A DNA stretch of 23,379 nucleotides. Origin: a virus. The stretch lies in IMG/VR virus record IMGVR_UViG_3300009152_000216, positions 1 through 23,379 of that record. One strand, written 5' to 3'. The position numbers and the translations under genes were made by a program. Below, one piece after another: positions 7,082 through 17,066 of the stretch (its first letter is position 1; every line of letters begins with the position of its first letter). Below the pieces are notes generated by a model. It was not told the DNA's origin. It saw nothing but the letters and a program-made list of their open reading frames with translations, and did not search any database.

Positions 7082-8185
7082 ATGTCGGTCCTTAATGAAG
7101 AATTAGATAAAATATTGTCGGTAATGAAAATAGTTTCAGAGCAGGAAGATTCAAATGAACAAATGAATGTTAATTTGAAAAAAACTGTGGAAGTATTAAA
7201 ATATCTTAGATTATATTCTAAAAATATTGAAAAAATGTTGGTGGAAATCAGCGTCATGGGTACATCTCAAATTATAGATTTTCATTTATTAGAAAGAGGT
7301 CTTAAAACAGTATTACTTAAAAAAGGAGATAAAAAGAAAAACGTTGAAGAATATTTTAATAAAATTATTTCATCATTAAAATTAAGAGATAAATCAGGAT
7401 ATGGTCCTGATTCAGATGATGATTATGGATTTGAAGTTGAGGAACCTTCTATTGTACCTAAAAAGGTATATAGAAAAGAAATATTTGAATTACAAGTAGA
7501 GCTATTAAAAATGCAAGAATGGTTGAAAGAATCAAATAGAACCGTAATTATCGTGTTTGAAGGTAGAGATTCTGCGGGTAAAGGAAGTACAATTAAAAAA
7601 TTTACAGAAAATCTTAATCCAAGATATTATAATATTATCGCATTAGGAGTCCCAACTCCTGAAGATAGACAAGATTGGTGGAACAGATATAAAAAAGAAA
7701 TTAAACCAGGAATGATTAATCTATTTGACAGAAGTTGGTATAATAGAGGTTTAGTTGAGCCAGTAATGGGGTATGGTAGTCCTGAAGAATATGAAGATTT
7801 TATGAAGAATGTAGAAGGATTTGAAATGGATTTGGTTAAAGAAGGAGATTACCTTTTTAAATTATGGTTTTCAATTGACAAAGGAACACAAAAAAGAAGA
7901 TTTGATATTAGACAACAATCTCCATTAAAATATTGGAAATATTCGCCAAACGATTCTAAAATGCAAGATTTATGGGATAGATTTACAGAATTTAAAGAAA
8001 AACTATTCGATAAAACTTCTACAATTAATCACCCATGGGTTATTGTTGACGCTGAAGACAAAAGAGTTTCAGGTTTAAACGCAATTAGATATATTCTACA
8101 AAATTTACCTTATAAAGGTAAAGACGAGAAGGTTTTAGACAAATCTTACCCTGAAGCATTAGCAGTTTTAAGACCAAAATCATAA
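7082..8185 (+). CDS. ppk2: Polyphosphate kinase 2 family protein
   Basis: A 367-residue protein. PPK2 enzymes move phosphate between polyphosphate and nucleotides (commonly polyP plus NDP or NMP to a higher phosphate). All family signatures are present: Walker A FEGRDSAGKGST (159-170), Walker B region INLFDRSWYNR (212-222), the lid-side VEPVMGY, SPLKYWKYSPND (280-291) and HPWVIVDAEDKR (317-328). The catalytic domain occupies about 128-345. The first about 125 residues are extra compared with the usual 230-300-residue enzymes and look helical, with an acidic loop (GPDSDDDYGFEVEEP). A TATTTAT motif 18 bases upstream suggests late expression. Substrate class (NMP or NDP) cannot be read reliably. 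It would regenerate NTPs/dNTPs from host polyphosphate late in infection, or consume polyphosphate; both are inference. Confidence 0.92.
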   Translation: MSVLNEELDKILSVMKIVSEQEDSNEQMNVNLKKTVEVLKYLRLYSKNIEKMLVEISVMGTSQIIDFHLLERGLKTVLLKKGDKKKNVEEYFNKIISSLKLRDKSGYGPDSDDDYGFEVEEPSIVPKKVYRKEIFELQVELLKMQEWLKESNRTVIIVFEGRDSAGKGSTIKKFTENLNPRYYNIIALGVPTPEDRQDWWNRYKKEIKPGMINLFDRSWYNRGLVEPVMGYGSPEEYEDFMKNVEGFEMDLVKEGDYLFKLWFSIDKGTQKRRFDIRQQSPLKYWKYSPNDSKMQDLWDRFTEFKEKLFDKTSTINHPWVIVDAEDKRVSGLNAIRYILQNLPYKGKDEKVLDKSYPEALAVLRPKS

Positions 8186-16442: not shown

Positions 16443-16470
16443 AAAAAAAGGAGACACCGTCGCGTCTCCT
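16443..16470 (-). terminator. Rho-independent terminator ending the non-coding stretch
   Basis: On minus: AGGAGAC (16470-16464), 8-base loop, GTCTCCT (16455-16449), then a run of T to 16443. There is no minus-strand coding sequence between this site and 17054, so it must end RNA-only transcription. Confidence 0.85.
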
Positions 16471-16745
16471 TCAAAGTCCCCGTCAGGACTATATGTGTGG
16501 TGTTCTTGATTAGGTAGGGAGTACACACCGAGACCCCGTAAAATTGGACATTTTTTATTTTTCTGAATTGTGAAAAATACCTAAAAAAGACAAGGTGAGT
16601 TTAGATTTATCCTGGAAAATCTGAGAGAACCACTCATTAAAAACCGCCCGTGTTTGATTTAACAATTTTCTAATTTATAACGCGGAGAAGAAATTGTTTG
16701 GGTGAGTATGGGGAACCACCACTAAAAAACATTCCGCTGTCCATT
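16446..16745 (-). ncRNA. Candidate structured non-coding RNA of about 300 nt
   Basis: The stretch has a near-consensus promoter at its upstream end (16751-16782) and a strong terminator at its downstream end (16443-16470), with no convincing ORF on either strand between. A second hairpin lies just before the terminator (AGTCC/GGACT at 16475-16490, loop of 6), and a GGTGT/ACACC pairing is possible at 16499-16529. I do not recognise a known RNA family in it. It is above average in G+C for this window, as structured RNAs in AT-rich genomes often are. Confidence 0.4.
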
Positions 16746-16750
16746 TTTTA

Positions 16751-16782
16751 TAAAGATAAGAAAGATTTTAATGCCTTCCAAA
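16751..16782 (-). promoter_or_regulatory. Near-consensus Bacteroidetes-type promoter
   Basis: On minus: TTTG (16782-16779), 20-base spacer, TATCTTTA (16758-16751), one mismatch in the last base of TAnnTTTG. It reads into the non-coding stretch that ends at the terminator at 16443-16470. Confidence 0.5.
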
Positions 16783-16824
16783 TCTTTTGATGAAAATTCC
16801 GAAAATAAATTTCGGGGACTTCCG

Positions 16825-16914
16825 TGGTTGGGATTGGAGTCGAACCAATGGCACATTACTTTTCAGATAATTGCTCTACCGTGAATCTTAAAGGATTCCT
16901 GAGCTACCACAACC
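16825..16914 (-). tRNA. tRNA-Phe (GAA), aberrant: D-loop insertion and acceptor bulge
   Basis: On minus a tRNA can be folded: acceptor 5' GGTTG(T)GG with 3' CCCAACC, discriminator A, no encoded CCA; D-stem GCTC/GAGC; anticodon stem ATTAT/GTAAT with loop CTGAAAA (anticodon GAA, Phe); 5-base variable loop; T-arm ATTGG-TTCGACT-CCAAT. Two things are odd. The acceptor pairs perfectly only if one T (16909) is looped out. The D-loop is 24 bases rather than the usual 7-11, because it holds an extra self-complementary stretch (GAATC-CTTTAA-GATTC, 16898-16883). The gene may be a functional variant, a pseudogene or a tRNA-derived RNA. A consensus promoter lies 25 bases upstream. The spurious plus-strand ORF starting MVGIGVEP over this gene is a common tRNA artefact. 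Confidence 0.7.
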
Positions 16915-16938: not shown

Positions 16939-16970
16939 CAAAGATAAGAAGAATTTTTCAAACCATCAAA
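16939..16970 (-). promoter_or_regulatory. Bacteroidetes-type promoter for the tRNA
   Basis: On minus: TTTG (16970-16967), 20-base spacer, TATCTTTG (16946-16939), an exact match. The tRNA begins 25 bases downstream at 16914. Confidence 0.7.
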
Positions 16971-17034
16971 TCTTTTTTTTTCAGAATTTGGATACCGAGT
17001 ATCTTTCATTACCTATAGGTTCCAAACTCTTTTA

Positions 17035-17066
17035 CAAAGATATAAATAACTTTTTACATTGACAAC
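17035..17066 (-). promoter_or_regulatory. Bacteroidetes-type promoter after the 84-residue gene
   Basis: On minus: GTTG (17066-17063; TTG core), 20-base spacer, TATCTTTG (17042-17035). It overlaps the stop region of the gene at 17054. The stretch immediately downstream has no ORF but a small hairpin (GATAC-TCG-GTATC, 17003-16991), so it may make a short leader RNA or simply add to tRNA transcription. Confidence 0.5.

Follow-up and report, generated by a model that had tools for sequence, protein, structure and literature searches.

To our knowledge, decades of work have brought no agreement on what phage tRNAs do. Some have been proposed to escape tRNA-cutting defences, an example being T5 tRNA-Lys against PARIS (PMC12409363, PMC10264068 and PMC11555353). 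Phage tRNAs have been predicted to be insensitive to anticodon nucleases, and it has been argued that defences which cut tRNAs have shaped them (PMC10264068). AriB of PARIS has been modelled on U16/U17 of the D loop, a change of U16 impairs cutting, and non-productive binding by phage tRNAs has been raised as a possibility (PMC12409363).

Here we describe a tRNA-Phe-like RNA gene in a viral DNA of 23,379 nucleotides (the window, that is, the whole stretch analysed, from IMG/VR record IMGVR_UViG_3300009152_000216). Like T5 tRNA-Lys and similar, putatively evading tRNAs, this RNA is phage-encoded and has a changed D loop and anticodon arm. Those tRNAs carry point changes in an otherwise normal molecule, whereas the tRNA-Phe-like RNA has a structural insertion and a bulge. 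With canonical tRNA-Phe(GAA) (RF00005) it shares the cloverleaf, the L-core bases, GAA, A73, the T loop and, in the window, G44 and U45; its own features are a D-loop hairpin, an acceptor bulge, a score below the Rfam cut-off, an anticodon arm that drifts among relatives, and a place outside the tRNA island. No phage tRNA combining a covarying D-loop hairpin with an acceptor bulge was found in the open-access literature searched.

Two other tRNA-like RNAs deserve comparison. The name given by ARAGORN and the enlarged D region are shared with tRNA-Sec, an identity ruled out by the GAA (not UCA) anticodon, the 7-bp acceptor, the 5-nt variable loop in place of a long variable arm, and the ARAGORN call once the hairpin is removed (see below). 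YrlA (bacterial Y RNA, RF02553) is also a tRNA-like RNA, but in YrlA-like RNA the acceptor is capped and lacks a 3' acceptor end, whereas the window RNA has the normal order and ends. Neither the capped acceptor and long closing stem nor any YrlA match (Rfam) occurs in the window. For a group I intron, the covarying hairpin at 16/17, at 18 nt, would be far too short.

Anatomy of the tRNA-Phe-like gene

The first-pass annotation had called a tRNA-Phe(GAA), and inspection of the minus strand confirms both the call and the anatomy (Table 1), including G34, A35, A36 and A73, the bases expected of tRNA-Phe. The acceptor, GGTTG[T]GG/CCCAACC, reaches 7/7 pairs only if T16909 is looped out, as had been noted, and is thus not the unbroken 7-bp helix of a canonical tRNA. 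U8 and A9 are present, the D stem is GCTC/GAGC, and the D loop, AGGAATCCTTTAAGATTCACGGTA, indeed has 24 nt and contains the perfect 5-bp hairpin described earlier. The T arm (ATTGG-TTCGACT-CCAAT) is intact, as are the other two elements reported so, namely the anticodon arm (ATTAT-CTGAAAA-GTAAT), with the canonical 5-bp stem and 7-nt loop including U33, and the promoter, a Bacteroidota-type -7 motif (TAnnTTTG). The variable loop is GTGCC (5 nt). CCA is not encoded, as is also the case for most ordinary tRNAs of these phages.

Table 1 Features of the three-RNA cassette in the window.
Feature	Position	Strand	Basis or remark
SL46, conserved 46-nt hairpin RNA upstream of the tRNA	16984..17029	(-)	Alignments; core ATGAAAGATACTCGG
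TATCTTTG, -7 motif just ahead of SL46	17035..17042	(-)	Motif scan
TATCTTTG, promoter of the tRNA unit (-7 motif of Bacteroidota type)	16939..16946	(-)	Motif scan
tRNA-Phe-like RNA gene, 90 nt	16825..16914	(-)	G1 = 16914, A73 = 16825; sequence
Looped-out T separating acceptor pairs 5 and 6	16909	(-)	Pairing
D-loop hairpin GAATC-CTTTAA-GATTC in place of 16/17	16883..16898	(-)	Two-sided changes among 35 sequences
Anticodon G34 A35 A36	16862..16864	(-)	GAA in every listed cassette member
Terminator-like hairpin 3' of the tRNA	16799..16815	(-)	
TATCTTTA, -7-like motif ahead of R290	16751..16758	(-)	Motif scan
R290, conserved structured RNA of ~295 nt downstream of the tRNA, terminator hairpin at its end	16445..16742	(-)	Alignment

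The Rfam tRNA model (RF00005) gives the window tRNA 25.7 bits, below its gathering cut-off of 29, and ARAGORN miscalls it tRNA-SeC(tca). ARAGORN names an edited copy without the hairpin tRNA-Phe(gaa), while removing the bulge alone leaves the call unchanged. Family model R1 matches 16825-16914 with 103.4 bits, the window being among the model's own sequences. ARAGORN makes no call for two relatives (L013 and L066) and misnames others SeC, Thr or Pro; in the GOLLD-clade members described below, the long D loop is what produces the spurious names Thr, Pro and "???". RNAs of this kind are probably under-reported, because standard tools miss or misname them. Folding of the single window sequence showed no unusual stability (z -0.61), so the case for structure rests on sequence comparison.

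Conservation and covariation among relatives

Relatives were collected through an 84-aa neighbour protein, which has homologues at 65 viral loci, and with a DNA pattern for tRNAs with an enlarged D loop, which returned 117 stretches, some of them ordinary tandem tRNAs. An intergenic alignment reveals a cassette of three conserved RNAs in the order SL46, tRNA, R290. Acceptors of the cassette group are mostly GGTTG[N]GG...CCCAACC. The acceptor bulge occurs in 20/20 distinct syntenic sequences, always at position 6 and with a varying base (T, A or C), and among the 191 distinct ordinary tRNAs of these loci not one requires a bulge of this sort. The D-loop hairpin is kept in 18 of the 20, the window included; the two exceptions, L331 (D loop AGTCCCGGTA) and L256 (AGAAGGTA), both retain the bulge, which is therefore the constant mark of the group. 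The T arm, the D stem and the tertiary-core bases are invariant (alignment A2), as in canonical tRNAs, with U8, A14, G15, G18, G19, C48 and the TTCGA loop all kept; the acceptor helix is preserved as well. The window tRNA sequence itself recurs in two further IMG/VR contigs, including the 66-kb G002. The sequences show an RNA gene derived from tRNA-Phe that a lineage of large phages has conserved.

Substitutions in the helices point to selection on structure. In a cassette model of 11 sequences, 9 pairs show two-sided changes (reached by 4/500 shuffles), 97.6% of the cells are paired (0/500), and the covariation score is also matched by 0/500. A 35-sequence alignment, which was fitted to the model and hence leans toward its structure, has two-sided changes in 18/27 pairs (1/500 shuffles), among them 5/6 pairs of the D-loop hairpin, and a covariation score reached by 0/500. 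A single 5-bp hairpin within an 18-nt insert is not rare by chance (7% of shuffles); over 33 distinct D-loop inserts, the mean is 5.7 bp compared to 4.0 (sd 0.15) after shuffling. That the hairpin is a plain stem is suggested by the UUCG-type loops that several members have.

Wherever its flanks can be read, the cassette tRNA lies behind a convergent gene for a 95-aa protein and, in most cases, before a LamG gene or a 91-aa gene. The conservation, the compensatory changes and the retention of the tRNA where this 95-aa protein is only 43-85% identical lead us to reject the decayed tRNA suggested by the first-pass annotation; on this comparative evidence, the RNA is a working molecule kept by selection.

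Anticodon arm and phenylalanine identity

The anticodon is GAA in 18/18 distinct cassette anticodon arms, even though their length is 15, 16, 17 or 18 nt (stem and loop 5+7, 5+6, 4+7 or 5+8). About half of them, including that of the window, have the standard 5+7 arm and the other half deviate. A73 is likewise invariant across cassette members; together with G34, A35 and A36 it makes up the conserved set of four bases that confer Phe identity (PMC9976931). Drift of the arm around a fixed GAA argues for recognition by a protein, which may be PheRS or a host enzyme reading tRNA-Phe, rather than for codon reading. Selection that keeps a tRNA despite drifting decoding geometry makes "tRNA for decoding" separable from "tRNA for something else".

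Genomic setting and neighbouring RNAs

A distance of 24-46 kb separates the cassette tRNA from the tRNA island in G004, G011, G012 and G013, and no other site in these four matches the family model strongly. The 66-kb G002, near-identical to the window, has an island of about 21 tRNAs that includes an ordinary tRNA-Phe(GAA); the window-type gene is thus an extra, divergent copy. By ARAGORN-based counts covering the island regions, an ordinary tRNA-Phe also occurs in G004 and G011 and is called in G017 and G008; the islands of G012, G013 (a partial record), G015, G016 and G009 yielded none. A normal tRNA in related phages had been named at the outset as evidence against a meaningful odd form. 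Comparison gives a mixed answer, in that near relatives retain that form and several carriers add an ordinary tRNA-Phe elsewhere.

T4 repairs PrrC-cut tRNAs with an Rnl1-type ligase. A ligase of this type is encoded in 9/11 records examined; Rnl1 ligases are known in other large phages too, so its presence does not point to the tRNA-Phe-like RNA. Ro60/TROVE genes were not found in the 11 records. Judged from the -7 motif alone, the hosts of the carriers look like Bacteroidota.

A -7 motif stands ahead of each of the three RNAs in most phages, including the window. In L099, L113, L148 and L180 there is one -7 motif, R290 begins a few nucleotides after the tRNA, and the tRNA would form a single transcript unit with the flanking RNAs. 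The SL46 motif is far commoner, occurring in at least 119 viral-contig stretches, mostly without a bulged tRNA. R290 has two-sided changes in 22/39 predicted pairs and carries two hairpins with GACGG-type loops. It has no Rfam match, and for this reason a T-box-like reading was dropped. Its core pattern was found in 26 stretches, all in contigs carrying a bulged tRNA, either known before or, in L331, found there. L256 has the bulged tRNA and lacks R290. Synteny with this new structured RNA provides a concrete test object.

Possible functions

From these features we infer how the RNA would be charged and processed and what its target may be. The reading that we place first, tentatively, and from sequence and analogy, is that it serves as bait for, or as a poorly cut form against, host enzymes recognising tRNA-Phe, ordinary decoding not being its selected job. 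Host PheRS would charge the processed RNA, and selection would act on something other than ordinary codon reading. Host enzymes that read the elbow and the anticodon arm of tRNA-Phe would bind it or cut it poorly, and the ordinary tRNA-Phe of host and phage would be spared during infection. A hairpin at 16/17 would lie on the outer elbow, so that the contacts of the L shape could stay. Indeed, the U16/U17 site on which AriB has been modelled is exactly the position of the hairpin, which gives a precedent for bait or resistance. The covariation, the fixed GAA and A73, the ordinary tRNA-Phe in several carriers, the distance from the tRNA island and the frequent Rnl1-type ligase also speak for this reading. 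Of the three readings offered by the first-pass annotation, decayed tRNA, unusually processed tRNA and decoy or resistant form, the last fits best, although its support is indirect; unusual processing is conceivable, given the shared transcript unit predicted in four lineages. The decoy reading is weakened by the standard 5+7 geometry of about half of the cassette arms, including that of the window, which could decode, by the lack of another tRNA-Phe among the island tRNAs of G012 (326 kb), and by the tight synteny with SL46 and R290, which hints at a role with them that a decoy leaves unexplained.

Second in our ranking is a decoding tRNA-Phe in which hairpin, bulge and changed arm resist host cutters, phage translation continuing after destruction of host tRNA-Phe. 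We consider this possible but less probable. The canonical CTGAAAA loop of the window, the preserved tRNA core, whose contacts an insertion at 16/17 avoids, and the case of G012 would all agree with such a molecule, and there are precedents (PMC10264068 and PMC11555353). Nevertheless, half of the cassette arms (5+6, 4+7 or 5+8) are unlike those of decoding tRNAs, and an ordinary tRNA-Phe is often present too.

Third, and rather doubtful, is a module for the neighbouring RNAs, in which RNase P and the 3' processing enzymes would cut at the tRNA and so release SL46 and R290, or in which R290 would have the tRNA as its partner. The four phages without a -7 motif between tRNA and R290 are consistent with this, as is the restriction of the R290 core to lineage contigs, the sole new one of which, L331, has the bulged tRNA. 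On the other side, most lineages, the window among them, have a separate -7 motif for every one of the three RNAs, GAA would not be needed for processing, L256 keeps the tRNA without R290, and kissing of the anticodon loop with an R290 loop was rejected after no co-change was seen by eye at position 37.

It is improbable that the RNA serves some non-ribosomal use of Phe-tRNA, as a donor of Phe or a sink for PheRS: the identity bases are fixed while decoding geometry drifts, which speaks for it, but neither a phage PheRS alpha nor a Leu/Phe-tRNA transferase (Aat) was found among the 11 records examined. A decaying pseudogene or an assembly error, suggested by the score under the Rfam cut-off and by the lack of a full-length relative in isolated phages, can be dismissed in view of the compensatory changes, the conserved synteny and the dozens of contigs, many of them independent, that carry the gene.

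More speculatively, and with more against than for it in our estimate, aminoacylatable non-decoding tRNAs marked by a hairpin in the elbow and a bulge in the acceptor might form a phage-specific class, which together with R290 would be an RNA-only counter-defence cassette.

Related tRNA-like genes in other phages

The family was not found in Rfam, and isolated phages gave only partial matches, to ordinary tRNAs. One scan of a genome collection returned 11 hits, mostly ordinary nested or tandem tRNA genes, with no family member by eye; one of them, L219, has a D-loop duplication. An archaeal sequence, an Aenigmatarchaeota MAG, holds a tRNA-like gene with a D-loop hairpin (L222:7766-7862).

A second group, the GOLLD clade, occurs in phages carrying GOLLD RNA and has GGTATT.. 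acceptors, mostly unbulged, and D-loop hairpins of 5-6 bp. Its anticodon loop is mostly AACGAAAG, with GAA present and U33 usually absent. GOLLD RNA was seen in L016, L024, L048 and L050, two of which, L024 and L048, also gave tmRNA matches; several tRNA-like genes lie close by, some of them from a TAGTCAGG...CCTGACTA family whose inner parts are odd. A YrlA-like RNA adjoins the D-hairpin tRNA in the GOLLD phage L024 (6592-6689; 40 bits, under the cut-off), where it is a permuted tRNA-like RNA with a capped acceptor and a closing helix of 8-10 bp, and also in L016, L038 and L048; no Ro60 gene was found with it. A third, smaller group (L110, L120, L176 and others) combines the hairpin with an extra T that, by eye, lies in the T stem and not in the acceptor.

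In other large phages, genes that resemble tRNA-Thr(GGT) and combine a D-loop hairpin with an acceptor bulge lie near the same place (L109:3273-3374 and L145:9852-9953), possibly by convergence. The D-loop insert of L151:2878-2978 holds a stem-loop resembling an anticodon arm, GGAGGGTTTGTAACCCTT, and L129:473-565 and L154:11462-11556 are two more tRNA-like genes in which a D-loop hairpin goes together with an unusual anticodon arm. Elsewhere in the window, the phage matches of the gene at 7082-8185 (+) include polyphosphate:AMP phosphotransferases and unannotated huge-phage genomes of up to 735 kb.
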